Positions 7,354-32,874 are shown, counted from the first letter of the stretch. The stretch: DNA of 32,874 nucleotides from Actinomycetota bacterium (GCA_963169225.1 CAUJDH010000094.1:1-32874), one strand, 5' to 3'. Program-made: numbers and translations. The notes: generated by a model not told the origin, from the letters alone.

Positions 7354-8100
7354 CTAATCGTCGATTCCCCGACCGGCCTCGAGGCTTTGGTCGTTAGTGG
7401 GGCCTGGTTCTGCCCATCCGAAACTGCGTATCGGCAACAGCTTGTCGCCGATTGTCGGGTGCTGAGCTGCTAGAGCTTTCGCCGACACTGCTTGCTTGGA
7501 TCGGGGCGGTAGGTCGATGACGACGTCGTCGAGCAGCGTGATGAGGTGATCGGCTTTACCGGTTTGCCGGTCGTGGTGGCACGCTGCGATGTTGTCGGCT
7601 TCAGTGACGCGGTTCCAGTCGAGATCCCATCCCGCATCGTTGGTAAGCCTGGCCAGGAAGATGCGTTGAGTGCGGCCGTTACCCTCGCGAAATGGGTGAA
7701 TGTAGTTGAAGTCGTTGTAATAGGAGGCGATTCTTTCGACGAATTCGCTTCGAGGGAGTTTTGCCAGCTCAGCTGGTGTGGCAACTGTGGCGGCCGTGTT
7801 GTGTGCCATGGTGCGGATCATTGAGACTGGCCCGAAGGGTTCGCCACCTTTCCAAATATCCAGGGTACGGATCTCCCCCGCCCAGGGGTAAATGTCTTGG
7901 AAAAGGTGGCGATGAATAGCCTCAAGCTCAACAAGGTCCCGAGTTGGTTTAATCGTAATCTCGTCGAGCCCGTAAGAGCGAATGGTGGCAAAGCGGCGCT
8001 CTCTATCGTCAAGTTCCGACTGAGTGGTGGCACCGGTGAGGTTGCGCAGAATCCCGGTATTGGGATCGATATAAGGATCTTCGGAATTAGATGAGGCCAT
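7354..8100 (-). CDS. fic: Fic-domain toxin (adenylyltransferase family)
   Basis: A 248-residue protein with the canonical Fic motif HPFREGNGRTQR beginning at His135. The preceding helices LVELEAIHRHLFQDIYPWAGEIR and the flap region (DIWKGG, then FGPVSMI) are typical. Fic enzymes transfer AMP from ATP to hydroxyl groups of target proteins; VbhT-type relatives target gyrase and topoisomerase IV. All active-site residues of the motif are present, so it should be active when not inhibited. The start overlaps the VbhA-like antitoxin gene by 14 nt. A tail of about 60 residues after the core, ending SLEAGRGIDD, is of unknown function. It is probably an addiction module of the element. Confidence 0.93.
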   Translation of the reverse strand: MASSNSEDPYIDPNTGILRNLTGATTQSELDDRERRFATIRSYGLDEITIKPTRDLVELEAIHRHLFQDIYPWAGEIRTLDIWKGGEPFGPVSMIRTMAHNTAATVATPAELAKLPRSEFVERIASYYNDFNYIHPFREGNGRTQRIFLARLTNDAGWDLDWNRVTEADNIAACHHDRQTGKADHLITLLDDVVIDLPPRSKQAVSAKALAAQHPTIGDKLLPIRSFGWAEPGPTNDQSLEAGRGIDD

Positions 8101-13552: not shown

Positions 13553-13660
13553 TTCCCCACCCCGCAAGAATTTCGATCTTTGATCTATCCATTAAGGATA
13601 CGGGACGGTGGCAAGTCGTTGCCGACATTCTCGATTCATTCTGGATCAGCAGGCGTGTCG

Positions 13661-14278: not shown

Positions 14279-16375
14279 ATGAGAAAAGAATTGAATAGCC
14301 GGTCGTGGAGATCGCGTCTTGTTGCAATAGTTGGAGCGGGTGCAATAGCAACCTCGGGACTGATTGGTGTGGGTGCAGCATTGAATCCTGCGGCGGCCGC
14401 TCCCGTTCCGAAGCTCACGGGCCTCAAGGTCACGGGCTGGGGAATGAAGAGCATAACTGTTGCTTGGAACAATTCAGGTCGCGGCTCTTACCAACAGGTG
14501 CAGTATTGCATCTCGGGTAATGCTAGCTCGTGTAAAGAGATCAAGACAGGATCAGGTGCGTCGACGTACACTGTCACGAACCTGACCCATGGGAAGACCT
14601 ATCGTTTCCAGGTGCGTGCAGTTAACGCAGATGGCGGCAACTGGTCGGATCCTGTGTATCAAAAGGCGGGTCTGCCTGGTAAGCCAGGAACTCCCACTGC
14701 GACAGCAGGTAACACGACTGCTCAGGTGTCGTGGGCTACTTCCCGCAACCTCGCGGCTCTAAACGGCTACACGCTCTACACTTACAACTCGGCCGGTACT
14801 GCGATCAAGTCGCAAAATGTTGCATGGAAAGACGCATCGCTCACTACCGCGAATGTCACCGGCCTAGCTAATGGAACCGCATACAAGTTTGCGGTCATTG
14901 CTAAGAACGAGTACGGCTCAGCCCCGTTGTCGGCGTTTTCTGGAACGGTGACCCCTAAAGCGGTTCCTGGTGCTCCAACGAATGTTGCGTTGACTCCAGG
15001 CAATAAGCAGGTGACGGTGACATGGGCTGCCCCTGCATCGGGTGGTAGTGCGATCACTGGCTATAACGTGCAGATCCAGCGTGATGGAGATCTAGGCTGG
15101 TCGGATATTCGACAAGCATCCGCCTCCGGGTTTGTGTGGAACGGATTGAAAAATGGCGAGACTGTGTTGGTTCGTGTCCAGGCCCGTAATGCTGTCGGTG
15201 CTGGCACGTTCGGATATTCCGAGGCCGCTACACCTGTAGGACCACCGGAGAAAGTGTCGCAACCGATTGGTGAAGGCAAAGTTGAGTCCGCTCAGGTGAC
15301 GTGGGTGGAACCAGACAACGGTGGATCGCCTGTGACTGGTTACGATGTGCGCTGGCGCTACCTGGATGAGCCAGAAAACACGTACCATGACGGACCAAGT
15401 ACCGATGCAGGTACACGTAGTGTTGATGTCACTGGCCTCACTTCCGCAAAAGAGGTGGCGTTCTCTGTTCGAGCCAAGAACGATCTGGGCGAAGGTGACT
15501 GGTCAGATACATCCGAGTATGTGAAGGTATTGAGTGCGCCTGCCTCATCACCTAAGGACGTGAAGGCCACAGCTGGCCAGAACTCGATTACCGTTTCTTG
15601 GCTGCCTGGCGATCCTAATGGGACACCCATTGCCGGCTACGAAGCGCGAGTGTCGTGTGACGGTGGTAAGAACTGGACAACAGTCCGCGTTCCTGTCAAC
15701 CAGTACGCGCATACCTTCACGGGATTGCCTGGTGGAAAGACCTGCACGACTCAGGTCCGTGCGCTTTCTGGCGATCCGGGTGCAAATAACTCAGAGTGGG
15801 TAGATGTCTCTAAGAATGTGGCCCCGATCGCACAGCCAGCTCCTGGCGCGACGAAGGTCACTGCACTGAAGTGGACGTCAACCCGCACGATGCGTGTGAA
15901 TGTTCAGGCTCCGGCAAAGGCTACGTCCCTCGAGGTTCGTACTGCAGCTGGTTCCTCGACGAGTTTCGGTGCATGGAAGCGGATCTCGAAGTCGACCAAG
16001 ACTTTGTCGTACTCACCGGGTTCGACTGGTATCACGATTCAGGTTCGGGCTTGTACTGAGCAGTGCTCGGCTGCGTCGACTGTAGTGGCGAAGTATTCAC
16101 CTCGTGCTAGTGCAGCTTCCAAAAAGCTGACTCAGGTTGCGGGAACTATTACTCAGTCGGGCCAGCAGCAGGTCTTTTTCCAAAACCGGAAGTCTGGCCA
16201 GTGGCGCGTGAAGTCCGGATCCCGTGTTGGCGGTTCTTGGCGTGCAGGTAGTCCTTCGGTTGTGACTGCTCGACCGGGTATGGTCTTCCAGCTGCGCACG
16301 AAGAACAAGAAGGCACACTCAACTGTTCAGGTACTCGCGAACGGTTCGTACCGTGGAACTGCGAAGGGGAAGTAA
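14279..16375 (+). CDS. Secreted multi-domain fibronectin type III protein
   Basis: A 698-residue exported protein. Residues 1-42 are a signal peptide (basic start, hydrophobic LVAIVGAGAIATSGLIGVGA, then NPAAAAPVP). Five fibronectin type III domains follow in about 90-100 residue units, at roughly 43-132, 133-228, 229-321, 322-420 and 421-520. Each has the pattern ITVAW, TAYKF or FxV-R-AxN near its end (for example VRAKNDLGEGDWSD). A sixth FN3-like unit (to about 610) and a basic C-terminal region follow. There is no LPXTG motif or membrane anchor, so it is secreted or held by partners. It is the first gene of a run including a lipoprotein-like and a bitopic protein. Adhesion or mating contact is a plausible role by inference. 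Confidence 0.82.
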   Translation: MRKELNSRSWRSRLVAIVGAGAIATSGLIGVGAALNPAAAAPVPKLTGLKVTGWGMKSITVAWNNSGRGSYQQVQYCISGNASSCKEIKTGSGASTYTVTNLTHGKTYRFQVRAVNADGGNWSDPVYQKAGLPGKPGTPTATAGNTTAQVSWATSRNLAALNGYTLYTYNSAGTAIKSQNVAWKDASLTTANVTGLANGTAYKFAVIAKNEYGSAPLSAFSGTVTPKAVPGAPTNVALTPGNKQVTVTWAAPASGGSAITGYNVQIQRDGDLGWSDIRQASASGFVWNGLKNGETVLVRVQARNAVGAGTFGYSEAATPVGPPEKVSQPIGEGKVESAQVTWVEPDNGGSPVTGYDVRWRYLDEPENTYHDGPSTDAGTRSVDVTGLTSAKEVAFSVRAKNDLGEGDWSDTSEYVKVLSAPASSPKDVKATAGQNSITVSWLPGDPNGTPIAGYEARVSCDGGKNWTTVRVPVNQYAHTFTGLPGGKTCTTQVRALSGDPGANNSEWVDVSKNVAPIAQPAPGATKVTALKWTSTRTMRVNVQAPAKATSLEVRTAAGSSTSFGAWKRISKSTKTLSYSPGSTGITIQVRACTEQCSAASTVVAKYSPRASAASKKLTQVAGTITQSGQQQVFFQNRKSGQWRVKSGSRVGGSWRAGSPSVVTARPGMVFQLRTKNKKAHSTVQVLANGSYRGTAKGK

Positions 16376-16766: not shown

Positions 16767-16937
16767 ATGGCTGAAAGCCCTGACACCGATGATCTGTCTG
16801 ATCGTGAGATTGATTTGCGTAACGGTCGACCAGTGCAGTCTCGTGTGAGATTGGTTCAGTTGGCAGCTCGTGTTTTCCCGCCGGCCGAGGTTCCGCATAA
16901 ACGGCCCAAGACCGCTACGGGTGATGAGGGAGAATAA
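16767..16937 (+). CDS. Small hydrophilic protein of unknown function, 56 aa
   Basis: The protein begins MAESPDTDDLSDREIDLRNG and continues to KRPKTATGDEGE. It has no membrane span. A short helical LVQLAARVF is the only hydrophobic part. The start at 16767 follows the lipoprotein stop by 2 nt and has AGAG upstream; GTG at 16755 is an alternative that would overlap. It sits in a tight operon, which supports it as a gene. Confidence 0.5.
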   Translation: MAESPDTDDLSDREIDLRNGRPVQSRVRLVQLAARVFPPAEVPHKRPKTATGDEGE

Positions 16938-16941
16938 GAAC

Positions 16942-17451
16942 ATGAGTGGATCAACGAAGCGATCGGCCGGCGCTACTTATATGTCGGTTTTTGGCGCCTC
17001 GGCTCCAAGCGACCCGGCAATTGAGACGCCTACCGCCGCAGAGGTTAGTGATCTCTATCAGGGCAGTGACGCTGAAGAGGTTACACCCACCACTCGGTCA
17101 AAGAAGCTCAAGAAAGGTAAGTCGTCGGGGGTTTGGGCTAAAGTGATGCGCCATTGGCGAGAGCTTGCAGTGGGAGTTGCTGGAGCCGTCATTGGTCTAT
17201 TCATCATTGTGGGTGCGACTATGGCTGGCTGGATTGGTGGCGGGGCTGTTGATGTTCAATCACCTACAGCGCAATGCAAAACTATGCTGGCTGATAAGCC
17301 AGCAGTTGTTTTTGCTCTCCCTGGTGGTCAGGTGGCATACGCTACTTACGCTATTGGTGCGGGTGACCAGTACCAATGGAAACTGCCTGGCCAAGATGGT
17401 GCGACTTCTTTGTCGTTGACACAGATTGAGGCACTAAGCACCTGCGATTGA
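16942..17451 (+). CDS. Bitopic membrane protein with two-cysteine outside domain (paralogue A)
   Basis: A 169-residue protein starting MSGSTKRSAGATYMSVFGAS. About 65 cytoplasmic residues, ending in a basic patch (RSKKLKKGK), precede one membrane span (ELAVGVAGAVIGLFIIVGAT). The outside domain, between AQCKTML and ALSTCD, has two cysteines at its ends and the pattern VVFALPGG, then YQWKLPG, then SLTQIEALSTC. The same pattern ends the protein at 18392. The start was chosen because GGGAGA lies upstream. These paralogues flank an opposing regulator gene, pointing to a duplication. The function is unknown; it is probably a structural or regulatory part of the secretion machinery. Confidence 0.7.
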   Translation: MSGSTKRSAGATYMSVFGASAPSDPAIETPTAAEVSDLYQGSDAEEVTPTTRSKKLKKGKSSGVWAKVMRHWRELAVGVAGAVIGLFIIVGATMAGWIGGGAVDVQSPTAQCKTMLADKPAVVFALPGGQVAYATYAIGAGDQYQWKLPGQDGATSLSLTQIEALSTCD

Positions 17452-18262: not shown

Positions 18263-18394
18263 GTTAGCGACGTTTGGTTTCCCAATCTGCAACAAATTGG
18301 GCTATTTCAGTGACTCTCTTTCCAGATCTTGCGTTCTTGATGTAGTATTGACGCTAACATATTGCAGATAAAGAGCATTGGAGGCGCTAATATG
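18263..18394. promoter_or_regulatory. Divergent control region of the T4SS operon
   Basis: The region contains GTTAGCG at 18263, CGCTAACATATT at 18352 and CGCTAATATG at 18385. The last includes the start codon of the gene at 18392. The middle one matches 12 bases of the palindrome at 14072-14087 and the last one 10 bases. TTGACG (18348-18353) and TAAAGA (18369-18374) are a weak candidate promoter. Operators overlapping promoter and ribosome binding site would give tight repression. Confidence 0.5.
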
Positions 18395-19111
18395 AGCAAC
18401 GATTCTAAGGGGGATGCACCAAAGATGGTGCATCGCAAGAAGCCATTGTCGCTGTCAGGGGAGGCACCGGATCTCGAACCAATCGCGGAGCCGGTACAAG
18501 TGACAGAACCGGCTTCAGCAGAAGAACCAGTAACGCAACTGGGCACTGAGCCAGTAGCTGAAGATAATCCTTTAGAGGATTTCTTGGTTACGTCGTCCGA
18601 GATAAATCCGGAAGACAGCTTTACTCCGCCGGTAGCGGCGAGGGAACAGCTGAACCATAATCCGGCCGCCCGTCAGGTTCGGATCGATGTGCGCGAGAGC
18701 CAACCGGTTAGGAAGGCACGTCCTACTTCAGGCCCTCGAGTGCAGCACAATGCGCAGTCCACTCGTGGCGCATCTTCTAATGGTCGAAAAAGGCCATTTA
18801 GCTGGTTGTGGGGTCTGCTTCCGGTGGCCACGTTCGTGCTGTCGTTCGTTTTCTTTAATACGTTTATTGGTCCGACCAGCCCAGCTATCGCGCAGCCATA
18901 TCCCGTACCTGCCACTTCAGGTAACGCGGAAGTGCCCGTATGTAAGGAGGGCAACAACGTGGTGTGGTTCGAGCCAGCTACTGGATCCCATGTGCTCGCC
19001 CAGCTACCCAACGAAACTGGCGAATCGTATTTGTGGATCGTGCCTGGATCTTCCAAGGGTGAACTGGCATTGAGCGCTAGCCAAGTGGAAGGTCTGGCCT
19101 CATGTCGATAG
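18392..19111 (+). CDS. Bitopic membrane protein with two-cysteine outside domain (paralogue B)
   Basis: A 239-residue protein with about 130 cytoplasmic residues rich in Pro, Glu and Ala, one membrane span (WLWGLLPVATFVLSFVFFNT) and an outside domain from VPVCKEG to LASCR. This domain matches that of the protein at 16942: Cys near the start, VVWFEPATG, then ESYLWIVPG and SASQVEGLASC. The start at 18392 has TTGGAGG 6 nt upstream. It is the first gene of the T4SS operon, overlapping the ATPase-like gene by 10 nt. No named family is recognised. The two cysteines may form a disulphide outside the membrane. Confidence 0.72.
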   Translation: MSNDSKGDAPKMVHRKKPLSLSGEAPDLEPIAEPVQVTEPASAEEPVTQLGTEPVAEDNPLEDFLVTSSEINPEDSFTPPVAAREQLNHNPAARQVRIDVRESQPVRKARPTSGPRVQHNAQSTRGASSNGRKRPFSWLWGLLPVATFVLSFVFFNTFIGPTSPAIAQPYPVPATSGNAEVPVCKEGNNVVWFEPATGSHVLAQLPNETGESYLWIVPGSSKGELALSASQVEGLASCR

Positions 19112-20289: not shown

Positions 20290-21063
20290 ATGACTTCACT
20301 CCACCCCAACTCCGGGGCTCTTGCCCGCGAAAAGAGCGGCAGCTGGCGACTTCTCATGGTCGTCAGCGTTGCCGTCATGGCTCTTGTAGCCCTGGCTGGG
20401 GTTGGTGTGTGGAGTTTGACCGGGTCGGCAAGTCCATCGGCAGCTGAGGGAACGGTCGGTGTCAGTGGTGATCGTGAGGATGAGATCGCACTGGCACCGT
20501 TCCCGCAGGTACAAGAGTTCTCAGCTGACGCTCCACCGCCGGTGGTGTCTGCGCCCGCTGACGTGATGAAGATTCCGGCCACTGCCGATGGATCGCCGGA
20601 AGGTGCTATTGCGGCGCTACATCAGAGCATTGCTGAAGCAACGGTTGACTTGGATCCGGCAAAAATTCAAGTGACATTAGACCGTTTCGTTATGCCCAAC
20701 GATAGTGCGGTTAGTGAACTCCAAGACATGGTTACTGAGGCCCGCACCCTACGGGCGCGATCAGGTTTCCCTGCGTCCGGGCCAGTAGAAGGGTTTAGTG
20801 CAAGAAACGAACTCGCCGGAGGGCTCATTCGTGGGACGAGTAAGGATTTCGCATCAGTATGCGTGATCGAAGAATTGTGGATCTCGTATCCGTCGCTAGG
20901 GGAGCGGGCGGTTCCCTGGACTGTGTGTTCTCGTCTGTGGTGGAAGGGAACTAAATGGCTAGCTGAGGCGCGCCCTAGTGCTAAACCACCGCAAGTATGG
21001 CCGAATACTCAACCAGCGCTGGATGCAGGCTTTCGTCCGGTTGAGGTGGTGACAGCACCATGA
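20290..21063 (+). CDS. Bitopic T4SS protein, VirB8/TcpC-like
   Basis: A 257-residue protein with a short basic cytoplasmic N-terminus, one membrane span (WRLLMVVSVAVMALVALAGV) and a large outside domain. After a Pro/Ala linker, the domain begins GSPEGAIAALHQSI and has the pattern of NTF2-like periplasmic or wall-zone domains, ending WWKGTKWLAEARPSAKPPQV. VirB8 and its Gram-positive counterparts (TcpC) form the scaffold around the channel. It starts nine bases after the pilin-like stop without a clear ribosome binding site and overlaps the next gene by 4 nt. The assignment rests on topology and order, not on a confident motif. Confidence 0.6.
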   Translation: MTSLHPNSGALAREKSGSWRLLMVVSVAVMALVALAGVGVWSLTGSASPSAAEGTVGVSGDREDEIALAPFPQVQEFSADAPPPVVSAPADVMKIPATADGSPEGAIAALHQSIAEATVDLDPAKIQVTLDRFVMPNDSAVSELQDMVTEARTLRARSGFPASGPVEGFSARNELAGGLIRGTSKDFASVCVIEELWISYPSLGERAVPWTVCSRLWWKGTKWLAEARPSAKPPQVWPNTQPALDAGFRPVEVVTAP

Positions 21064-22433
21064 GCAACGTCATGATGATGGCCACCGATCTTTTCTCAGT
21101 GTCGTGGGGGCCAGCCGGTGACTTAATGGAAGGCGCAGTTAAAGGCGCTTTCGAGTTCTTCGGTGGCCAGTTCTTTTCCGGCGGCCACAACATGCTCAAA
21201 GCCGCATTCGAGTTCGGAAACCAGCAAGGCAGTTTTGAAGTTGGGTTCAGTGGCAATTCAGGATTAGCACGGATCTGGCCCTACACGTCATGGATCGGTC
21301 TGATCATTGTACTGGGACTACTGTTTTGGCAGGTCGCGATGAGCCTGTTGCAACGCAACGGTGCCACCATGGCCACCGCGCTGCTGGGCGTGGTGAAGTA
21401 CGTCATCATCACCGCGTGCTTCGTGGGTGTAATTGCGACTTTCAACGGCGTCATGACTGCGTTAACAAGTGCCATATTGGGGCTTCCCAGTAAGGGCGGG
21501 ACCTTTGGCTCGGCCGGCAGTATGCTCATCGCTGGCACTAGCGGAATGGGCGCGCAAGGCCCTGCCTTAGCTATGATCCTGGGCTTCTTGATGATCTTAC
21601 TGGGCGTCCTGGTAGCGATTCTTTTTTCGTTGATGCAAATTGGCGTGATCGTGCTTTTAGCACTCTCACCCATTGTTGCCGCTGGTGTAGTAGCCGAATC
21701 TTCGGCCACCTGGTGGCATCGCCTCGTCAAATGGGTAGCAGCGCTTTTAATGGCGAAGCCGGTCATCGCGATAGTGCTGGTTGTAGCACTCATGCTTAAT
21801 GAAGGAGCCAAAGGCCCATGGCAGGGCCTGGTCACTTTAATGGCAGTTTTCGCGATCTGCATGGTGCCGTGGCTATTGATCAAAATGATTGATTCAGCAA
21901 CTGGCGGCAATATGCAAATGGCATTAGGGAAAGCGAAGCAAGCCGGAATGAGTGCTTTGGGTCTTGGCGCGGGTGGAGCTGCTGCGGGTGCGGCAGGAGC
22001 CGGGGCTGGATCTCAGTCTGCTTCGCAGTCAGCAAATATGGCATCTAACTCAATTTCGAGTGCTACTGAGCAACGGCAACAAAATGCTGAAGCGGCTCTC
22101 AAGCTTATTGACGAGCAGGAGCAAGCGCAGAATCAGTCGAGTTCGGCAGACGCGAGTAATCAAAGTTCAGCGGGCCCAACGCCTCCTGCTTCTCAATCAC
22201 CTTCAGTGGAAGGCGGGACCGGTGGAAACGGCAGCACCGGCACACCAGGCACGCCTGGGCAGGATGCTCCCGAAAGTGAATCCTCGCCAAGTAGCGGCAA
22301 ACCGGTGAAGGTTGGAACCCAAAACCTGAGAGTTGCATTTTCCCATGGAGCCGGGCCTGCCGGATTCAATTCGATTGATCCACCGGATCCCACCAGAACT
22401 ATCACTGTGCCAGTAGCGGCACCACGAGAGTAG
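21060..22433 (+). CDS. VirB6/TrbL-like polytopic channel protein
   Basis: A 457-residue protein. The first 290 residues have five to six membrane spans, for example WIGLIIVLGLLFWQVAMSLL, VVKYVIITACFVGVIATF, LAMILGFLMILLGVLVAILF, IGVIVLLALSPIVAAGVV and KPVIAIVLVVALML. The last third is a low-complexity tail (Gly, Ser, Gln, Ala, then Pro). This is the architecture of TrbL/VirB6 in Gram-positive T4SS, which forms the inner-membrane channel. Start and stop overlap or abut neighbours: ATGA with the upstream gene, ten bases to the next. The variable tail is usual in the family. Confidence 0.8.
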   Translation: MSNVMMMATDLFSVSWGPAGDLMEGAVKGAFEFFGGQFFSGGHNMLKAAFEFGNQQGSFEVGFSGNSGLARIWPYTSWIGLIIVLGLLFWQVAMSLLQRNGATMATALLGVVKYVIITACFVGVIATFNGVMTALTSAILGLPSKGGTFGSAGSMLIAGTSGMGAQGPALAMILGFLMILLGVLVAILFSLMQIGVIVLLALSPIVAAGVVAESSATWWHRLVKWVAALLMAKPVIAIVLVVALMLNEGAKGPWQGLVTLMAVFAICMVPWLLIKMIDSATGGNMQMALGKAKQAGMSALGLGAGGAAAGAAGAGAGSQSASQSANMASNSISSATEQRQQNAEAALKLIDEQEQAQNQSSSADASNQSSAGPTPPASQSPSVEGGTGGNGSTGTPGTPGQDAPESESSPSSGKPVKVGTQNLRVAFSHGAGPAGFNSIDPPDPTRTITVPVAAPRE

Positions 22434-22443
22434 GAGCAGAACT

Positions 22444-23949
22444 ATGAGCGCACATATGTATTCCGGGTGGAGGCCAGAAAAGCAAGGCTGGCTATTCGGT
22501 CTTTCAGGCGGTCAACTGGTGGGAATCCTTATCGTGTGGGCCTATCCCGCCCTTGGCCTATTTTTAGGCAAACTCTCTGTTGTCATCATGGGAGGCGTGA
22601 TCGCTCTTATCGTGAGCGTATTGATCATGTGGCGACCTGGCGGCCGCACATTATTTGGTTGGCTGATTGCCAGCGGGGTGTGGTCATGGTCGGATAAGAA
22701 GCGATACAACGAGTTTCAGTCACGGCTCTCTGCCGGATTGGACCAGGATCCCACGCAACCAGATCTACCAGGCGTGTTGGGTCGACTGGTGTTTTACGAA
22801 GGCCCCATGCTTGCCAATCTGTCTCGGCTGGGTCTTATTCATGATCCGATCGAGCGAACCTGGACAGTAGTAGCTCGCACGCACAATCAGGGAATCGCAT
22901 TAGAAACTGACACCACCATTAACGCACGGGTATCTGGCCACGCTGAACTACTCGAGGAAGTTGGCGGCGACCCTCATGTTCTACGGGTCGTTGAATATGT
23001 GCGAACGGTTCCCGATGACGGAACAGAAGCCCGCCATTGGCAGGAAGAAAACCTTGACCCTTCAGCTCCTGCAGGACCGTTGGAAACGGTGAAGCTGCTT
23101 CGCTACGCGGCCGCGACTCAAGCCTTGCGCCAGGAAACCTTCATGGCGTTAGTGATAGATGAACGGAAAGCCGCAAGGGCAGCGTCAGCTGCAGGTGGTG
23201 GACTTGAGGGCTACGGAAAAGTGATCCAACGCAAACTCCACGGGTTTGCCAGTGTCCTCACCTCGTGCGGCTTCGTTGATCACGAATGGTTGGACGTCAC
23301 CAAAATTGGTGACGCCATATCTGAAGGATTTAGCCCACTGGATCCTGTCGATCGTGCGATCTCGAAACTGACCAACGACGACGACGTCGACGAGTTTACT
23401 GATTTGTCAGCCGTGGGCCCGGCCTCAGCGCAGGCACTACGTGGCTGCTTACTGCATGACGGGTCGATTTCGGTGAGCTTCCGGGTAGCCCTTCCGCACA
23501 ATCAAATGCCTTTGGATGCACTTACCCAAATGATGATGCCGGCCGTGGCTGGGGAACGCCGCTCCATCGCACTGCATTTCGAGGGAATCGAGGCCTCCCA
23601 AGCAGACCGGGCAGTCGCCAACGAAATCTACAAGTCCGAAGTAGCAATGGATGCGAAAGTGCAACGGAAGTTCCGCACCAGCCGAAAAGAGGTGAAATCT
23701 CTGGAAGAGGCTCACCGTCAAGAGTCGCAGCTGGCATATGGCGCAACTCTGATGAGAGCGGCGGTCGTTCTGACCGTGACCGTACCGACAAACGTCAGTA
23801 TCGATGATGCGTGCGCAGCCGCCGAGTCATCAGCTCGTAAAGCCCGCATGGGACTGCAACGCTTGTGGATGGCACAAGACGCTGGTTTCTATGCGGGGGC
23901 ACTACCAATCGGTGTGGGACTTCCCAGGATCCGCGGAGGTAGGGCATGA
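22444..23949 (+). CDS. SCO6880-type protein (PrgI/VirB3-VirB4 N-terminal half)
   Basis: A 501-residue protein. Two membrane spans lie at about 22-65 (LVGILIVWAYPALGLFLGKL, then VVIMGGVIALIVSVLIM), the PrgI/VirB3 part. The large soluble remainder corresponds to the N-terminal half of VirB4: TWTVVARTHNQGIAL, AATQALRQETFMALVID and a C-terminal block with MGLQRLWMAQDAGFYAGALPIG. Actinobacterial SCO6880 proteins have this plan. The ATPase half is the next gene, with an ATGA overlap, so the VirB4 function is split over two chains. AGGAG is 6 nt upstream of the ATG. Confidence 0.88.
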   Translation: MSAHMYSGWRPEKQGWLFGLSGGQLVGILIVWAYPALGLFLGKLSVVIMGGVIALIVSVLIMWRPGGRTLFGWLIASGVWSWSDKKRYNEFQSRLSAGLDQDPTQPDLPGVLGRLVFYEGPMLANLSRLGLIHDPIERTWTVVARTHNQGIALETDTTINARVSGHAELLEEVGGDPHVLRVVEYVRTVPDDGTEARHWQEENLDPSAPAGPLETVKLLRYAAATQALRQETFMALVIDERKAARAASAAGGGLEGYGKVIQRKLHGFASVLTSCGFVDHEWLDVTKIGDAISEGFSPLDPVDRAISKLTNDDDVDEFTDLSAVGPASAQALRGCLLHDGSISVSFRVALPHNQMPLDALTQMMMPAVAGERRSIALHFEGIEASQADRAVANEIYKSEVAMDAKVQRKFRTSRKEVKSLEEAHRQESQLAYGATLMRAAVVLTVTVPTNVSIDDACAAAESSARKARMGLQRLWMAQDAGFYAGALPIGVGLPRIRGGRA

Positions 23950-25469
23950 ATCAGCCTCAAGGAATCCACGAAGTGATCTCAGATGCCGGACACGATCGCA
24001 CCTGGTTGACCGAAGCCGACACCGAGTACACCGAACCGACGCTATGGCAGCGTGCAGCGGCTCATTTCGAGCGTGCGCCTGCACCTAAAGGTATCTCCAA
24101 ATATGGTGAGAGAGCACCGGGAACGGGTTACTCGCGCCTGCGGGCACCATTGAGCGTCTATCGTGCAACCAGTGCCCAATTCTGCGGTCTATACCCTTAT
24201 GTCGCGAACGAAGGGTTACCCCCTATCGGTGCCTATATTGGTGCGGACTACACCTCTGGTGGAGCGTTCTACTGTTCACCGACTGATTGGGTCATGCGGG
24301 AATTGGTGACGAACCCAAACATGATTTTCATGGGTGAGCCAGGAACAGGAAAGTCCGCTTATGTGAAGGCCTTGTCGTGGCGATTAGCCGCGTTCGGAAT
24401 CAAAACGATCGTTCCGTTGGATCTGAAAGAAGAGTACGAACCGTTAGCGCGCGCTTTAGGGTGTGAACCGCTGCGGTTCGGTCCAGGGACGAATACTCGT
24501 ATTAATCCGTTGGACTCGGGGCCGATCGCGGACAACATTCGCGAAGGCGTGTCAGCTGACGATTTGGCTCGCTCTGTCGGTGCCGAGCGCGTTATTTTGC
24601 TTATCGCTCTACTCGAGGCAACGGGATACAAAGTGTCAAAGATTGATGAACAGGCACTCGCGATCGCGATTGAGGAAGTCACCATCGCACGGTTGAATAC
24701 TGGCGGCGATCTTCAACCGACTGTGCCTGATGTGTGGCATGCGTTGCGCACACCGAGCAGTGAACTCCGGCAAGATATGAACTTTCACAACAAGACTGAA
24801 GCCAATGTTGCGTTACGAGAGTTATGTGCAGCTTTGTCCTCGCTGGTCACCGGCCCGCTTCGTGGGTTGTTCGATGAACAAACCAATGTCAGCATCGATT
24901 TTCAACAACCGTTTGTGAGCGTCTCCGGACCTGGCCTTGAATCCAGGGGTGAGAAAGCTGTAGGTGTGGCACTCACCTGCATGGGTGCGTGGATGCAAGC
25001 TGCCACCCGGAAGCGTAAACCTGGCGAAGTCACGATCGTTATTAACGATGAGGATTGGCGCGCAATGCGCCTGGGGACAGCAATGGTGAAAGAGCGCGAC
25101 GCGCGGCTGCGCTTGTCACGTACCGAAGGCAAAATCCAGATTATGGCTGTCCATAAGCCCTCTGACCTTCTCAGTGTCGGTGGGGCAGGGGAGCAGGCCA
25201 CCAACATTGCTAAAGACTTCATCGGACTGTGTTCAACCAAAGTCATGTTGGCTCAAACCGACGGTGTCTCAGCGTCACTTGCTGACGCGATCGGGTTAAC
25301 AGGTCGGGAACAAGACGAGCTCACTGGCTGGTGCCACGGAGCTCGCGGACGTGCTCTATGGAAGGTGGGCCAACGCGGATTCAAAGTCCGGTCCTGGTTG
25401 ACACCGTTGGAGCAAAAACTATTCCACACCGATGAAGGTGTGAATCGTAAAGTTGCTGTGACGTCATGA
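23946..25469 (+). CDS. VirB4-type T4SS ATPase (C-terminal half)
   Basis: A 507-residue protein with Walker A GEPGTGKS at 130-137 and Walker B IVINDED at 364-370, flanked by motifs of the VirB4/TraE/HerA-FtsK family: VPLDLKEEYEPLARALG, FGPGTNTRINPLD and the late KIQIMAVHKPSDLLSVG. It energises assembly and transfer through the T4SS. It lacks the N-terminal VirB4 domain, which is supplied by the upstream SCO6880-type gene with an ATGA overlap. The stop overlaps the cell-wall enzyme gene by 4 nt. All key residues are intact. Confidence 0.93.
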   Translation: MNQPQGIHEVISDAGHDRTWLTEADTEYTEPTLWQRAAAHFERAPAPKGISKYGERAPGTGYSRLRAPLSVYRATSAQFCGLYPYVANEGLPPIGAYIGADYTSGGAFYCSPTDWVMRELVTNPNMIFMGEPGTGKSAYVKALSWRLAAFGIKTIVPLDLKEEYEPLARALGCEPLRFGPGTNTRINPLDSGPIADNIREGVSADDLARSVGAERVILLIALLEATGYKVSKIDEQALAIAIEEVTIARLNTGGDLQPTVPDVWHALRTPSSELRQDMNFHNKTEANVALRELCAALSSLVTGPLRGLFDEQTNVSIDFQQPFVSVSGPGLESRGEKAVGVALTCMGAWMQAATRKRKPGEVTIVINDEDWRAMRLGTAMVKERDARLRLSRTEGKIQIMAVHKPSDLLSVGGAGEQATNIAKDFIGLCSTKVMLAQTDGVSASLADAIGLTGREQDELTGWCHGARGRALWKVGQRGFKVRSWLTPLEQKLFHTDEGVNRKVAVTS

Positions 25470-27508
25470 AGTTAGGAGCACTGCTTGTCGCGTTGAGCCT
25501 TGTCGCTGGAATGGTGATCATTCTTCCGATCATGGCGATTCAGTCGACAGCGAGTGCTGCCGCAATATGCAAGTCCGAAAGTAACGGAGAAGCGGCATGG
25601 TCAGCGCCCTCAGCTGCTGCTAAAAACATTCCGGCAGTCGCATACGAGGCGTATGTGAAAGCGGCGCAAAAGCATGGGCTGGATTGGGTATATCTCGCTG
25701 CAATCGGTGAGCAGGAATCAGGTCATGGCACCGCCTACGGCAACAAGCTCGATAGCGCAGGAACGGCCAAACCGGGAGTATTTGGCACACCAACGCCTTA
25801 TGGCAGAGCGATGGGGCCGATGCAGTTCATTCCCTCAACGTGGAAAGCCTACGGCCGTGACGGTAACGGTGACGGCAAGAAGGATCCGCAAAACATTTAT
25901 GACGCCGCTTTCGCGTCAGCTGCCTATTTGCGTGCATCGGGAGCACCGGGGAATTGGGATAAGGCGATCTACGCCTACAACCATGCTGGCTGGTACGTGA
26001 CACAAGTAAAAGAAAAAGCAGCAAAATATCGGAAGGAAGCCGCCAATTCCCCAGTATCAAGCCCCATTAGTACAACCATCGACGGGCGCGTGTGGCCTGT
26101 AGGTAAAGGCAACATCGGTGCCCACTTCGGTCAGGCAGGTGGCTCATGGTCCAGCGGCTACCACACCGGGCAAGACTTCGGAAGAAAGCAAGGCACAACA
26201 ATTTATGCAGCCCACGATGGGCAAGTGGTCGAAGCCGGTTTTGGCACGAGACATTCTGGCTGGGCCGGCGGATTGGTGATCGTGCGGGCAAGCACTAAAC
26301 AAGGTGCGGTAGTGGAAACCTGGTATGCGCATCAATCGAAAGTGGACGTAAAAAAGGGAGACACCGTCAAAGCCGGTCAACGTATTGGCCGGGTTGGATC
26401 GACCGGTAATTCCACCGGGCCGCACCTCCACTTCGAGGTAACTATCAACGGGAAACGGACAGACCCGTTGAAATGGTTAAGCGGTGCTGAAGACGCCCCA
26501 ACTGGCGATCGGATCGCCTCGAGCGTGTTCATTGTGGGTGACTCGTTGACCGTGGGAACGGTAAAACATTTACGAGCTGCCTTCGGGAAAACCGATTATG
26601 ACGTTGACGCTCTTGGGGGCCGCACCATGGCCCAGGGCATCGAAATTTTGAAGAAGAACAAGAATGCGCAAACGGCCGCTACGTGGATCGTTGCTTTGGG
26701 CACCAACAATCCGCAACCGAGTACATACGGCAAACAGATCGATCAGGTGCTCAAGTTAGCGAAGCAACGACAGGTCGTAATTCCGACTATTGGCCGGGTG
26801 CATTCAACAACGCAGAAAATGAACGACATTCTCATAACGAAAGGCATTGAGAATGCGACGCATTTGAGCACACCTGACGCGGCTGCAGTACCGGCATCGA
26901 TGGTGGCTGACCAGGTGGGGCACCTCACTGATGCCGGCTATAAATGGAGAGCTGAACTGTACGCCTCGAGCGTGAAAAATGTTGACGAACGCGACGCCTG
27001 CGGCGACGGTAGCGACATGGGGCCAGTCAATATCCCCGGTCTACCTGCTAATCCACCCTCACATCAAAAAATGAACGAGAACCGCCTGCAGCGCAATGCG
27101 GTTAAGACTGGCCGGGTGCTTTTAGCGGCATTTCCCGAGATCAAAAGCATCGGCGGCTACCGCCCTGATCGAATGCAATACCACCCCTCGGGTACTGCGC
27201 TAGACGTGATGGTGGATGACAACGGCAAATTCACTAAAGAAAGTGAAAAGTTGGGTTACCGGATAGGGCAGTTTCTCTTGAGATATGGCAAGCAACTCGG
27301 TGTCAACAGGTTCATTTGGCTTTCACGTATTAGCTACATCGAGAAAGATCCAAATACGGGCTTCAAACATAAAGATCCTTGGGATCCGAAGAAGGCCCGT
27401 CTGCTGACATACGGCGGGTGCAGTGCGAATCCGAACAATATGACAACCGTATGTCACTACGACCATTTGCACGTTGACACGTTCGACAACAGCGGCCGCG
27501 CGCTTTAG
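25466..27508 (+). CDS. Four-domain cell-wall remodelling enzyme (SLT, M23, SGNH, M15-like)
   Basis: A 680-residue exported protein. Residues 1-33 are a signal peptide. A lytic transglycosylase-like domain (about 55-190) has the catalytic Glu in EQESGHG (Glu84) and MGPMQFIPSTW. An M23 endopeptidase domain (about 205-340) has HxxxD at His233/Asp237 and HxH at 320-322. A GDSL/SGNH hydrolase domain (about 352-500) has GDSLTVG (Ser360), GTNN (Asn414) and the Asp482/His486 pair. A C-terminal domain (about 535-680) with HPSGTALD (His573, Asp580) and CHYDHLHV resembles D-Ala-D-Ala carboxypeptidase-like M15 domains. T4SS VirB1-type enzymes usually have one or two of these. All active sites appear intact. 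It should open peptidoglycan for the channel. Confidence 0.9.
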   Translation: MKLGALLVALSLVAGMVIILPIMAIQSTASAAAICKSESNGEAAWSAPSAAAKNIPAVAYEAYVKAAQKHGLDWVYLAAIGEQESGHGTAYGNKLDSAGTAKPGVFGTPTPYGRAMGPMQFIPSTWKAYGRDGNGDGKKDPQNIYDAAFASAAYLRASGAPGNWDKAIYAYNHAGWYVTQVKEKAAKYRKEAANSPVSSPISTTIDGRVWPVGKGNIGAHFGQAGGSWSSGYHTGQDFGRKQGTTIYAAHDGQVVEAGFGTRHSGWAGGLVIVRASTKQGAVVETWYAHQSKVDVKKGDTVKAGQRIGRVGSTGNSTGPHLHFEVTINGKRTDPLKWLSGAEDAPTGDRIASSVFIVGDSLTVGTVKHLRAAFGKTDYDVDALGGRTMAQGIEILKKNKNAQTAATWIVALGTNNPQPSTYGKQIDQVLKLAKQRQVVIPTIGRVHSTTQKMNDILITKGIENATHLSTPDAAAVPASMVADQVGHLTDAGYKWRAELYASSVKNVDERDACGDGSDMGPVNIPGLPANPPSHQKMNENRLQRNAVKTGRVLLAAFPEIKSIGGYRPDRMQYHPSGTALDVMVDDNGKFTKESEKLGYRIGQFLLRYGKQLGVNRFIWLSRISYIEKDPNTGFKHKDPWDPKKARLLTYGGCSANPNNMTTVCHYDHLHVDTFDNSGRAL

Positions 27509-27529
27509 ATGAATGAGAAGGAGACAGTG

Positions 27530-27796
27530 ATGGAGTCAGAGACAAGTTGGCGTCAATATGCGCTATGTACGCAAGTTGATTCGGAGCTCTTTTTCCCCGA
27601 CGCCAGAGAAAGCAATAAGGATGCACGCAGGGTGTGTGCAGCGTGCCCGGTCAGCTGGGAGTGCCAAGAGTATGCGATCTCGATGAAGGAACGACATGGG
27701 ATCTGGGGCGGCAAAACAACGAAGGAGCTTGCTGCTATTCGGTTGCAACGTCAAGCCCACCAGTTGGTGACAGAACCTCACATCGAAGCAGCCTGA
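27530..27796 (+). CDS. WhiB-family iron-sulphur regulator 2
   Basis: An 88-residue protein starting MESETSWRQYALC. The cluster cysteines are Cys13, then CAAC and the cysteine at CPVSWEC. GIWGG and a basic C-terminal segment (KTTKELAAIRLQRQ) follow. It is a second, diverged WhiB after the one at 8422. The start at 27530 has GAAGGAG 6 nt upstream; an upstream ATG at 27509 follows the previous stop directly but would place that ribosome binding site inside the gene. A regulator within the transfer operon could couple transfer to redox or nitric oxide state, as WhiB proteins sense these; that is inference. Confidence 0.93.
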   Translation: MESETSWRQYALCTQVDSELFFPDARESNKDARRVCAACPVSWECQEYAISMKERHGIWGGKTTKELAAIRLQRQAHQLVTEPHIEAA

Positions 27797-28341: not shown

Positions 28342-30114
28342 ATGAGTTCCAGAGGTAACGACTTTATTCTGATAGCTATTGGTGCCGTCGCTGGACTCGT
28401 GGCGACTCTCGCCCTCGGAGCGCAACTAGCGACATTAATAGCAACACGTCACACCATCGATGGATCGAATGTGATGGGTAATTCGCTGCGTATGCTGTTC
28501 AATCCGGCAGATCCGGCGGCAGCTTTCGCTGACGGATCAGGTGTTCCGAACGTATTTCTCGTATGGGCATCAGTGGTGGTAGTGGCCATAACCGGAACGT
28601 GGCTAGTCATCCGGGCAACTCGCTGGGTCCGCGGGCAAACCTCCAAACCATTAACCGCCGGAATGGCCTCCACAAGAGATCTCGTCGCTAGTGCCGGCAC
28701 CCGAGAAACAATCAAACGTGCCTCCATCACGCGCCCTGGAAGTACGGTGCGCGAAGGCAAAGAGGCGGGCTATCCAGTGGCCCGAGTTGGTAACCATCGA
28801 CTGTGGGTGAGCGTGGAAGACTCTGTTTATATTTGGGGGCCACCACGGTCAGGTAAAACACAACGAATCCTCACCGGATTCGTGCTCGATGCTCCTGGCG
28901 CAGCCGTCATCACGTCTACTCGACCTGATTTACTGGCGTTAACATCACTTGCTCGCAACCGGACAGGATCGAAAATTGAAGTGTTCGATCCCAACGGACA
29001 CCTGGGGGTCGATGGGGGATTCCGTTGGAATCTAGCGCACGGGTGCGCTGATCCGGCGGTTGCAATACGGCGAGCACATGCACTCGCGTCGACGGGTGGT
29101 TTTGATAGCAGTGTTGGTGACGGCAGTTTTTGGCAAGGCCAAACTGAAGCGGTGCTGCGGTCCTTATTGCACGCCGCTGATTTGATGGACGTCGACGTGG
29201 ACCAACTCGCAGAGTGGGGAATGGCACCGGAATCAGCGAATCGGGCAGCTGAGTTTTTGAACACGAGCCCTGCTGCAGCACCGGGCTGGGCTCACGCTCT
29301 CACGTCAGTTATCGGATCCCATGAGCGTCAACGTGATTCAGTGTGGATGGGGGTTCGTCAAGCTTTAGGTGCGTTAGCTAATCCAGTGACTAGGGCTGCT
29401 CTTAATGCGCCTCGGTCGGAACAGTTTGATGCTCAAGCGTTCCTACGCGATCGAGGATCACTCTATATATTGTCGACTGCGCAATACGCGAAACAAGTGG
29501 CAGGAGTATTTTCTGCGCTTGTTGAAGATCTCGCGGCCGCCGCCCGTCACCTTGCTGCATCCTCACCAGGTGCACGCCTGGATCCACCATTACTCATGGC
29601 ACTCGATGAAGTCGACAAAGTGCTTCCCGGTCTACCCTCACTACCTGCACTCGTGGCTGATGGTGGCGGTTCAGGCATCACCACTGTTCTCTCCCTCCAA
29701 TCACTTGCCCAAGCGCGCACTGCATGGGGCAAAGACGAAGCACAGGCATTGTGGGACGCAAGTAACGTCAAAGTAGTGCTCGGTGGTTCAACGGCAGCTG
29801 ATGAGCTGCGCGACATTAGCAACCTCATAGGTGAACGTGACGATAAGACCGTGTCCTACACCCATCACGATTCGATGTTGGCGTACTCGGCGAACGAGAA
29901 TGTGCGCCGAATCCCTATTGCTCCGGTTGATGAGCTGCGTCAGCTTCAACCAGGACAAGGGATCATTTTGTTGCGATCCACTCAAGCCGGATTAGTGACG
30001 CTACCGGGCTGGTGGGATCGCTCTGACGCTAAACAGATACTCAAGGACCGCGAAGCGGTCGAGCAGCTACTTCATACTGCAGCTGAGAACCAAAAGACTG
30101 GTTTGGGCGCATGA
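28342..30114 (+). CDS. VirD4/TraG-type coupling protein
   Basis: A 590-residue protein with two N-terminal membrane spans (FILIAIGAVAGLVATLALGA and FLVWASVVVVAITGTWLVI), Walker A GPPRSGKT at 166-173 and Walker B LLMALDE at 417-423. Other family blocks are SKIEVFDPNG, FRWNLAHGCADP, SLYILSTAQYAKQV and ITTVLSLQSLAQARTAWG. The coupling protein is a hexameric ATPase at the membrane that passes the relaxase-DNA complex to the T4SS channel. The gene overlaps the HNH gene by 4 nt. All key motifs are present. Confidence 0.93.
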   Translation: MSSRGNDFILIAIGAVAGLVATLALGAQLATLIATRHTIDGSNVMGNSLRMLFNPADPAAAFADGSGVPNVFLVWASVVVVAITGTWLVIRATRWVRGQTSKPLTAGMASTRDLVASAGTRETIKRASITRPGSTVREGKEAGYPVARVGNHRLWVSVEDSVYIWGPPRSGKTQRILTGFVLDAPGAAVITSTRPDLLALTSLARNRTGSKIEVFDPNGHLGVDGGFRWNLAHGCADPAVAIRRAHALASTGGFDSSVGDGSFWQGQTEAVLRSLLHAADLMDVDVDQLAEWGMAPESANRAAEFLNTSPAAAPGWAHALTSVIGSHERQRDSVWMGVRQALGALANPVTRAALNAPRSEQFDAQAFLRDRGSLYILSTAQYAKQVAGVFSALVEDLAAAARHLAASSPGARLDPPLLMALDEVDKVLPGLPSLPALVADGGGSGITTVLSLQSLAQARTAWGKDEAQALWDASNVKVVLGGSTAADELRDISNLIGERDDKTVSYTHHDSMLAYSANENVRRIPIAPVDELRQLQPGQGIILLRSTQAGLVTLPGWWDRSDAKQILKDREAVEQLLHTAAENQKTGLGA

Positions 30115-30602: not shown

Positions 30603-31012
30603 GGATCAAATGCGCTAACCGACATTTCAGGATTGTGCTTGCTGAAGCATCCGCTGCGTTGAACATAGGAACGCATCGCCTCGACGGCTCGGTCGTGGTG
30701 GTCAAGCCAATCATTCGGGTACACACCACTTGCAATAGGGGAGTAGGACAGTAACCAGGCGTCCCGCATAGCGGTGACCCGCTCAATCAGATAACCGTGA
30801 TGCACCCAGCATTCAGGTAGCACCGCATTGGGTATGTCGAAACGGTCAACCCACCATTTCGCCCAATACAGCACTTTCTCCCATGTCTCTGCCGGATCGT
30901 AGCCTGCCGATGTGAGATCCGCCCAATTCACTACCGGAGCCAGGTCCTGCTCAAGTTGCTCGGCAGCTTCAGTGAAGTAGTCCTGATCTGTGTTTTCTTC
31001 TTCGTTGTTCAT
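30500..31012 (-). CDS. DUF4913-like protein, coupled to the relaxase gene
   Basis: A 170-residue acidic protein. VEW-like helices, WEKVLYWAKWWVDRFDI, then PECWVHHGYLIERVTAMRDAW and NDWLDHHDRAVEAMRSY, match the pattern of DUF4913, a family often found beside actinobacterial plasmid transfer genes, with conserved Trp-Cys-Trp-His spacing. Its function is unknown. The start overlaps the stop of the relaxase gene (ATGA), so it is made together with TraA and may be a relaxosome accessory. The last 35 residues (TMSPAVPAQPVAADHDGNDS) are disordered and overlap the opposing HNH gene. Confidence 0.75.
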   Translation of the reverse strand: MNNEEENTDQDYFTEAAEQLEQDLAPVVNWADLTSAGYDPAETWEKVLYWAKWWVDRFDIPNAVLPECWVHHGYLIERVTAMRDAWLLSYSPIASGVYPNDWLDHHDRAVEAMRSYVQRSGCFSKHNPEMSVSAFDPYDTFITVAAPSTMSPAVPAQPVAADHDGNDSGE

Positions 31013-32874
31013 CGTTCAATCCCTTCATCGCGACTAATGAGGCGACCTTCAGTTCGGTGTGGCATCAGTGGTGGTCTATCGTCGCTATTCCAACGAGTGA
31101 TCAAACCAACCAACTTTTTATAACTGGCATGGTGTGGTGTTCCCATCACGGGTTTCTCCCCAACGATCTGTGCTCTATCGGTGACCGTGAACCGTTCTCG
31201 GTACTCGACCACATCACCCACCAACTCGAGGTATTTTTCTTGCTCGTCGGGTGTGCGAGGGGCACGAACCACACGTAACCATTGCGGTTTATTGTTCAGT
31301 GCGTCAACGGTGAGCCGGTGACGTATTGGAGCACGCAAGTCGTCAATATGCTTCACAGCTGCCGCTAGCTTCGAGTCGGTTGGTGTCGCTAGGACACCCG
31401 GTGCCAGGGGCCGGCCTAGCTTCTTAATATCTCGACTTACCGCAGCTGCGAGGGCAGCTGACGTCACATTGCCCTCACATTGTTCGACCGCTCGAGTTAG
31501 CGCGAGCTGTGGATCCAGACCGGCAAGTTCCGCCGAGCGTAAGGTAGCGGCCAGCTGACCAAAACGATGTTCATTCGCCAGCTCTTGACTCATCAAAGTG
31601 CTCAACCCGACATCTGGAAGGCGGTGCTTCCAGGTCCGCTCATCATCAGCATTAAGTAGTTCTTCACGCACATTATTCAGATAACGCAGGTTTCCTGTCT
31701 TGGCGTAGCTTTCGCGTAGTGTTTCTGTCGCGGTGAGTTCTTGAGGATCGTTGGCGATCGCGTTTTCCAGAATCCCAATCGCATCTTGACTCGGACCCAT
31801 GGTGTGGCCGCGCTCGTCGGCCGAGTCCACTGCGACACCAACCTCGTTGACGTCGGTTCCTCGCGAAAGCATCACATACAACGCCTCGGCGTTGGTGTGA
31901 TCTGATGCGACACCAATACACGCATACGCCGTTGCTCCTTGAGCTCTGCGCACTGTTGCGGCATATCCGAGCTGAACGTGCTCGGTGACATAGTCCGCTG
32001 GCAAGATCGCTGTCACTCCTTGACCGTCGACGTCGACCACGGCAAGGGATCCCTCACCTGCGGATCCTGTAATGCGCCAGCGTTGACCGTTTTTAATCCA
32101 ATCACCGTTGGAATCAAGAATGCGTCGCTGATTTTTGCGACAAAGAATTACGTCCGATTCATGAAGGGTGTGCCCGTCGCGAGATTGCCCGATCGCGGCC
32201 CCGAGTTCGCTATTCGCGAGTCTGCGTTCTTGAGCGAGATCGTTGAGCTGCGCAACAGCTGTGTTCCGTTCAGCCACGATCAACGTGTCATGGCCCTGAT
32301 CCGTGAGAGTGGTCCACTTCTTGAAGGCCTCGTCAAGAACCGTGTCCGAATTTCCTTCAAAGACCCGGCCGTGGGCCACATACTCATCAATGACAGTGAC
32401 ATCACGAACACGAAGGCGCAGGTTTGCCGCTTTCTCCCATTCGTGGGTGAACCGGTGCAGTTGGTTCAAATGCACTGCGTGCCCATCGTGCTCGAGCATG
32501 GCGAGAGCACCACCAGCCCCGATTGCACTGTATTGCTTGGGATCCCCGATAAAGACAAGTTTCGCGCCAGCATTGTGCGCTTGGGTAGCTAACGAGGCTA
32601 ATGAGAAAGTGTCGGCCATGGCAGCCTCATCAAGTAGCACTAGCTGCCCTGGCTGGAACTTCCATTGCTTGCGTTCTTCGGTGAGTTTGGCTACTGATTT
32701 AGTTAGCTTGGTTTTGCCTTCGTCGGTTAAACGACCCCGTTTGAGCGCGCGCGAGAACTTCGCAATGTTCTCTGCTCTTTGCTTAGCGCCCTCTCCCTGG
32801 CTTTCGTGAAGCCATTTGTCTGATACGTGGGAGTCAATTCCAAGGCTCTTACCCATCACGTCGGCTGCCGCCGC
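31009..32874 (-). CDS. TraA-type relaxase-helicase, C-terminal part (cut by window end)
   Basis: The frame is open at the right end (AAAADVMGKSLGIDSH), so this is the C-terminal 621 residues. It carries the later motifs of a superfamily 1 TraI/RecD-like helicase: Walker B QLVLLDEAAM, motif III LVFIGDPKQYSAIGAGGAL, and the terminal TVRRAQGATAYACIGV, then EALYVMLSRG. A long C-terminal region without known motifs follows. The N-terminal relaxase domain (MobF-type tyrosines and three-His cluster) and Walker A lie outside. The enzyme would nick at oriT, stay bound to the 5' end and unwind the strand. It is coupled to the DUF4913-like gene and convergent with the T4SS operon. Confidence 0.92.
   Translation of the reverse strand, partial: AAAADVMGKSLGIDSHVSDKWLHESQGEGAKQRAENIAKFSRALKRGRLTDEGKTKLTKSVAKLTEERKQWKFQPGQLVLLDEAAMADTFSLASLATQAHNAGAKLVFIGDPKQYSAIGAGGALAMLEHDGHAVHLNQLHRFTHEWEKAANLRLRVRDVTVIDEYVAHGRVFEGNSDTVLDEAFKKWTTLTDQGHDTLIVAERNTAVAQLNDLAQERRLANSELGAAIGQSRDGHTLHESDVILCRKNQRRILDSNGDWIKNGQRWRITGSAGEGSLAVVDVDGQGVTAILPADYVTEHVQLGYAATVRRAQGATAYACIGVASDHTNAEALYVMLSRGTDVNEVGVAVDSADERGHTMGPSQDAIGILENAIANDPQELTATETLRESYAKTGNLRYLNNVREELLNADDERTWKHRLPDVGLSTLMSQELANEHRFGQLAATLRSAELAGLDPQLALTRAVEQCEGNVTSAALAAAVSRDIKKLGRPLAPGVLATPTDSKLAAAVKHIDDLRAPIRHRLTVDALNNKPQWLRVVRAPRTPDEQEKYLELVGDVVEYRERFTVTDRAQIVGEKPVMGTPHHASYKKLVGLITRWNSDDRPPLMPHRTEGRLISRDEGIER

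Follow-up and report, generated by a model that had tools for sequence, protein, structure and literature searches.

The wall enzyme at positions 25466-27508

We analyzed a stretch of DNA of 32,874 nucleotides from an uncultured Actinomycetota bacterium (GCA_963169225.1 CAUJDH010000094.1:1-32874), hereafter the window, which carries a type IV secretion system (T4SS) operon of the actinobacterial SCO6880 type. The open reading frame (ORF) at 25466-27508 (+) runs from ATG to stop in a single frame without an internal stop codon and encodes 680 amino acids. That its product is a VirB1-like wall enzyme of the T4SS is well supported, because the gene sits in this operon with its start codon overlapping the preceding gene. 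Four domains follow one another in the order SLT, M23, SGNH and VldE-type zinc peptidase, each with its known active-site motif. The features of the chain are as follows.

25466-27508, + strand: VirB1-like T4SS wall enzyme (ORF translation, Pfam, operon context)
25466-25564, + strand: N-terminal hydrophobic segment, signal peptide or membrane anchor, residues 1-33 (hydropathy scan, translation)
25598-26050, + strand: SLT lytic-transglycosylase-like domain, about residues 45-195; E84 in ESGHG, MGPMQF motif (PF01464 7.2e-9, PF13406 5.9e-9)
26087-26485, + strand: M23 (LytM/lysostaphin-type) endopeptidase domain, about residues 208-340; HxxxD H233/D237, H289, HxH H320/H322 (PF01551 3.1e-28; PDB lysostaphin/LytM matches)
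26504-27001, + strand: SGNH domain, OatA-C-like, about residues 347-512; S360, G384/G385, N414, D482, H486 (alignment, PDB profile 6wn9 4.6e-17, AlphaFold2, Foldseek)
27038-27505, + strand: VldE/MT3-type zinc L,D-endopeptidase domain, about residues 525-680; H573, D580, H667, H669 (alignment, PDB 9flh 6e-28, AlphaFold2, Foldseek)

All four domains are beyond chance. The most hydrophobic 19-mer of the N-terminus begins at residue 7 in the hydropathy scan, which fits an anchor or a cleaved signal peptide alike; the chain is exported and probably held at the membrane or channel. A preliminary description, made from the sequence alone, had proposed one exported T4SS wall enzyme with four catalytic domains and active-site residues visible in each. 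The uninterrupted frame, the profile and fold matches of the domains and the operon bear out an exported T4SS wall enzyme of four domains, as do the motifs (including E84 and S360), the blemish being the spacing of one SGNH motif, which is taken up below.

Identity of the SGNH and C-terminal domains

The matches to SLT (PF01464, residues 65-190), SLT_2 (PF13406) and M23 (PF01551, residues 232-334) are well above the Pfam cut-off. The SGNH and C-terminal domains were invisible or sub-threshold in Pfam, in NCBIfam and mostly in PHROGs, and were therefore examined by other means. The excised SGNH domain matched PF13472 at E = 0.003, which is sub-threshold in Pfam, and residues 352-509 matched L005, a 235-aa protein from the same genome that has one domain and is apparently secreted, at 37% identity (E 5e-15). 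Similar single-domain SGNH proteins were also found in further members of the host's family and order. Across 15 aligned sequences, GDS (S360), GTN (G412-T-N414), D482 and H486 are invariant; both block I, GDS(L) with the catalytic Ser360, and block III, GxN with the oxyanion Asn414, are present.

A profile search against the PDB placed OatA catalytic domains first (6wn9 at 4.6e-17, 6vjp, 5ug1 and 5ufy), before TesA-type thioesterases and other esterases. This profile was built mostly from the single-domain paralogs and so describes the family, whereas the Foldseek result concerns the window's own domain. Its AlphaFold2 model (pLDDT 84.7, pTM 0.83) has the SGNH alpha/beta/alpha fold, and Foldseek again ranked OatA SGNH domains (5ufy, 6wn9, 6vjp; E 8e-8 to 3e-7) above thioesterases of the TesA type and further esterases. 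The SGNH part, for which the preliminary description had asked for a fold check, is thus predicted to be a folded domain. By profile and by modeled fold, its nearest solved relatives are the catalytic domains of OatA peptidoglycan O-acetyltransferases.

The window SGNH shares fold and motifs with the OatA catalytic domains of S. aureus (6VJP/6WN9) and S. pneumoniae (5UFY). OatA, however, is a transferase with an AT3 membrane donor domain, and no AT3 acyltransferase (acyl-donor) domain was detected by Pfam in the wall enzyme chain, nor any AT3/MBOAT acyl-donor domain among the window genes scanned. The wall enzyme was therefore not classified as an OatA, in spite of its OatA-type catalytic domain: the N-terminal AT3 domain is missing. 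A Val/Ile before the oxyanion Asn, published as a marker of OatA versus esterase, was considered and left unused because S. aureus OatA has Thr at this position in the alignment, as does the window SGNH.

No Pfam or NCBIfam model matches the C-terminal domain. In 34 aligned sequences, the H, G, A and D and the three H of its motifs HPxGxAxD..HxDHxH are invariant, and its profile matched the MT3 domain of S. pneumoniae VldE (Spr1875) at 6e-28 (9flh). The AlphaFold2 model has a pLDDT of 76, with Foldseek matches to 9flk, 9flm and 9flh (E 6e-6 to 2e-5, TMt 0.65-0.78). H573, D580, H669 and H667 of the window align with VldE H301, D308, H375 and H373 and are invariant. VldE is a characterized endopeptidase that cleaves the L-Ala|D-Glu bond of cross-linked stems and binds its catalytic zinc through H301, D308 and H375 (PMC11667670). 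On alignment and model, the domain is of the VldE/MT3 L,D-endopeptidase type (PDB 9FLH-9FLN), with the zinc ligands H, D, H and the HxDHxH motif conserved. VldE itself is LysM-linked and outside a T4SS; the same paper mentions actinobacterial proteins joining MT3 with lysozyme-like and peptidase domains, and names no SGNH there (PMC11667670). Membership of the M15 family, to which this domain had been likened, was rejected in favor of VldE: there is no Pfam M15 match, and the Foldseek likeness to LdcB/MepA is insignificant. What stands of that earlier proposal is a zinc-peptidase domain with a predicted fold.

Operon and host genome

The T4SS and transfer genes around the wall enzyme are listed below.

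21060-22433, + strand: multi-spanning membrane protein, SCO6881/VirB6-like (weak; NF047967 0.007)
22444-23949, + strand: SCO6880-family T4SS protein (NF042935 1.2e-104)
23946-25469, + strand: VirB4-like ATPase (NF045975/NF045971/TIGR00929 5e-13 to 2e-9)
27509-27796, + strand: WhiB-family regulator (PF02467 1.1e-20)
28342-30114, + strand: VirD4/TraG-type coupling ATPase (PF12696 2.5e-22, PF02534 6.6e-21)
31009-32859, - strand: TraA/TraI-type relaxase-helicase, cut by the contig end (TIGR02768 5e-31, PF13604 1.7e-27)

The start codon of the wall enzyme overlaps the stop of the VirB4-like ATPase gene, which in turn overlaps the SCO6880-family gene. A VirB1-like enzyme is expected to lie in a T4SS operon and to carry peptidoglycan-degrading domains; the SCO6880, VirB4-like ATPase and VirD4/TraG genes lie near the wall enzyme, and its predicted SLT and M23 domains both have their catalytic motifs. 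A ParA gene in the window fits a plasmid-like element. The WhiB gene begins at the base after the wall enzyme stop codon, within the T4SS operon.

Six AT3 acyltransferase matches were found in the host genome, and one of them (L285) has at its end an SGNH domain with OatA matches of 1e-12 to 1e-13. Because the host encodes this OatA-like protein, it plausibly has some acetylated wall polymer, although the host AT3 proteins may act on polymers other than peptidoglycan.

Related wall enzymes and search for the same fusion

We surveyed 106 stretches with hidden Markov models made in this analysis for eight modules; to 100 stretches around SCO6880-type matches we added the window, four plasmid records and a contig, L168, that had been reached via the VldE domain. 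At least one wall-enzyme candidate was present in 81 of the 106, and many of the remaining 25 are cut by contig ends. Architectures included SLT-NlpC, SLT-M23, M23-VldE-SLT, SLT-M23-VldE, M23-SLT-NlpC, M23-RPF-VldE-SLT and SLT-EEP-VldE-M23 (EEP, endonuclease/exonuclease/phosphatase), among others; SLT-M23-SGNH-VldE occurred once, in the window. Wall enzymes of three to five domains are thus common in the SCO6880-type T4SS class; the number of domains is ordinary and the SGNH module is unusual.

This also limits the preliminary view that a multi-domain VirB1-type enzyme is remarkable in itself, since the three-domain PrgK is already published (PMC11323569); the unusual SGNH module is the part of that view that remains. 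PrgK of pCF10 from Enterococcus faecalis (LytM-SLT-CHAP, VirB1-like) resembles the window protein in serving the wall of a Gram-positive T4SS host and in combining several hydrolase domains, M23/LytM and SLT among them. It differs in having three domains without SGNH or VldE, a degenerate LytM and an inactive CHAP, where the window M23 motifs are intact. Closer in T4SS kind are the enzymes of Gordonia pseudamarae p1 and Corynebacterium crudilactis pCRULAC1 (M23-RPF-VldE-SLT) and of Nocardia and Rhodococcus plasmids (M23-VldE-SLT), all of which have M23, VldE and SLT in common with the window. In these enzymes of three or four enzymatic domains the order is permuted, and RPF or nothing stands where the window has SGNH. 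A single alignment spanning 208-618 had suggested M23-SGNH-VldE for a Gordonia match (H1); this was rejected, as its middle part is an RPF transglycosylase.

Protein searches of 11 family, 166 order and 395 class genomes, of 72,556 plasmids and of phages, IMG/VR and GTDB contigs did not find the same four-domain fusion; sampling and sensitivity set limits to all of them, and the contig scans used exact octamer patterns. The SGNH domain alone as query gave no matches in plasmid records. No literature joining VirB1-type enzymes with SGNH/GDSL domains was found among open-licence papers, which is no proof of absence. Genomes, plasmids and these papers gave no sign that the four-domain protein is already widely described.

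An SGNH domain with intact GDS, GTN and DxxH was found in one other kind of SCO6880-type T4SS wall enzyme, encoded at L083:3921-5741 and L084:4160-5980. These identical 607-aa proteins, from two genomes of one genus in the host's order, have SGNH followed by NlpC/P60. Their SGNH domain is just 22% identical to that of the window and is accompanied by NlpC/P60 and a weak SLT-like part, with neither M23 nor VldE. In the SGNH tree the two do not group, and both are long branches; independent recruitment of the two T4SS SGNH domains is likely on this tree. In one of the two genomes, the same contig carries another T4SS (L080), whose enzyme is shorter and has NlpC only.

The T4SS of L255 is among the closest to that of the window by its SCO6880, ATPase and VirB6-like proteins. 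Its wall enzyme, at L255:6387-8021 (-), reads as SLT-(degenerate SGNH-like)-CHAP-like, with GDS changed to GDD. The middle segment gave an hhalign probability of 61% (E 8e-5) and an hmmsearch value of 1.6e-4 among 83 wall ORFs, which is suggestive only of a degenerate SGNH.

An EEP domain (PF03372) lies beside SLT, M23, VldE or CHAP in L168 (2-2521 +), L214 (4172-7330 -), L216 (2029-3933 -) and L210 (13920-16091 +); the L214 enzyme apparently has two EEP-like segments. It is unexpected for a conjugation wall enzyme to carry a nuclease-fold EEP enzyme outside the cell. L168 and L214 (SLT-EEP-VldE-M23) and L216 (SLT-M23-EEP) share with the window a modular plan in which a non-wall hydrolase is placed among wall cutters, the extra module being EEP and not SGNH. 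The actinobacterial T4SS wall enzymes thus form a mosaic drawn from at least eight modules, with SGNH and EEP as unexpected members. In L203 (15164-18012 +), a separate VldE-domain ORF lies near an SLT-NlpC enzyme, and the M23-SLT enzyme of L262 (14152-16035 -) has a C-terminal HGHIHVDV motif resembling another zinc peptidase.

Proposed mechanism and alternatives

We propose that the window protein is a wall-opening VirB1-like enzyme of a conjugative SCO6880-type T4SS whose four domains cooperate on an O-acetylated wall, a reading that we put just above an even chance. The analysis shows a single chain of four identified domains whose active-site motifs are intact apart from the spacing of one SGNH motif, a T4SS operon and an OatA-like host gene; we infer the activity of each domain, the SGNH substrate and the cooperation between domains. 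The SLT domain would cut the glycan between N-acetylmuramic acid (MurNAc) and N-acetylglucosamine (GlcNAc), the M23 domain the peptide cross-link or bridge, and the VldE domain L-Ala|D-Glu in cross-linked stems. The OatA-like SGNH domain would hydrolyze acetyl esters, most likely on MurNAc C-6. Lytic transglycosylases require the free C-6 hydroxyl (OH) of MurNAc, which 6-O-acetylation removes (PMC6174289); deacetylation would free the 6-OH that the transglycosylase uses to form 1,6-anhydroMurNAc, and jointly the four domains would open the O-acetylated wall locally for the transfer channel.

The likeliest role of the SGNH domain would accordingly be removal of the MurNAc O-acetyl groups that block lytic transglycosylases: it is of OatA type and has no acyl-donor partner, and is therefore best explained as a hydrolase that works in the opposite direction to OatA and unblocks the SLT substrate. 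The preliminary suggestion that SGNH removes O-acetyl groups gains support from the OatA-like fold and the OatA-like host gene, the removal itself being a predicted step. Its "self-contained wall perforator" is likewise conjectural, PrgK having only its SLT active in vitro. A more specific proposal, which we hold tentatively and at somewhat less than an even chance, is that the protein represents an OatA-derived Gram-positive O-acetyl-peptidoglycan esterase fused to a lytic transglycosylase, by which a mobile element undoes pore-blocking acetylation in donors or recipients. Multi-cutter T4SS wall enzymes are already known; the interest lies in a transglycosylase joined to an OatA-like SGNH module, and a conjugation enzyme of this build is a directly testable exception. 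An SLT-M23-SGNH-VldE enzyme could show how a transfer machine copes with acetyl-protected walls and, if the proposal is true, wall O-acetylation can hinder conjugation and mobile elements have evolved its removal.

Several points weigh against the proposed cooperation on an O-acetylated wall. In PrgK, the SLT alone is active in vitro, and the well-predicted LytM and CHAP are inactive and regulate SLT (PMC11323569). Block V of the window SGNH reads D-Q-V-G-H, a DxxxH one residue longer than the DxxH of all others in the 15-sequence alignment, and the SGNH-like segment of the L255 wall enzyme lacks the GDS, GTN and DxxH motifs. OatA itself is a transferase and a weak esterase (PMC6174289), direct sequence similarity between the window SGNH and the OatA-like SGNH of the host is modest, and the host AT3 proteins need not act on peptidoglycan. 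The main doubt is whether the SGNH domain is catalytic, and the strongest caution comes from the PrgK precedent together with the DxxxH spacing.

A non-catalytic SGNH (possibly with other domains), serving as a glycan-binding or regulatory module that restrains SLT as LytM and CHAP do in PrgK, would draw on that same precedent and spacing, on the degenerate segment in L255 and on the long branch that the window SGNH forms in the SGNH tree. Unlike L255, however, the window SGNH keeps S, G-T-N, D and H, and the L083/L084 domains likewise keep their motifs; we regard this explanation as rather improbable. The SGNH domain might instead be an active esterase on another envelope ester (an acylated secondary wall polysaccharide, a teichoic-acid-like polymer or capsule), clearing a path to donor or recipient peptidoglycan. 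SGNH specificity is unreadable from sequence, the Foldseek neighbours include TesA-type thioesterases and carbohydrate acetyl esterases, phage-derived SGNH domains have been proposed as surface-glycan deacetylases (PMC9862828), and a cutinase gene lies near the operon on a Gordonia T4SS plasmid. The nearest solved relatives by profile and fold are nevertheless peptidoglycan O-acetyltransferase domains, and the remaining domains of the chain are all predicted to act on peptidoglycan, which leaves another ester unlikely as the target.

Acetyl transfer in the manner of OatA, re-protecting wall edges or limiting damage round the pore, would suit a domain whose nearest solved relative is the OatA catalytic domain. 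We consider it very unlikely, as neither the chain nor the scanned window genes have an AT3/MBOAT acyl-donor domain, and the host's related secreted protein, a lone SGNH domain, is likewise without one. The genome is a draft of 109 contigs and the exact architecture had no second copy in the searches, which would be expected if the four-domain frame were an assembly chimera. One open frame runs throughout, the G+C content is even across the four domains (0.51-0.56, against 0.55 for the operon), and start and stop are fitted to the neighbouring operon genes, so that a chimera is extremely improbable.

Other genes in the window

An exported protein encoded upstream of the T4SS operon (14279-16375 +) contains about five fibronectin type III repeats and is a possible surface adhesin. 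The gene at 11588-13567 (-) encodes an exported metalloprotease, M12/reprolysin-like, whose C-terminal tail is basic. HicB-family (2324-2887 -) and Fic/DOC-family (7354-8100 -) genes are possible toxin-antitoxin parts of the mobile element. In the T4SS region, two small membrane-anchored proteins (16870-17451 + and 18362-19111 +) end in ..QIEALSTCD and ..QVEGLASCR and are probably paralogs.

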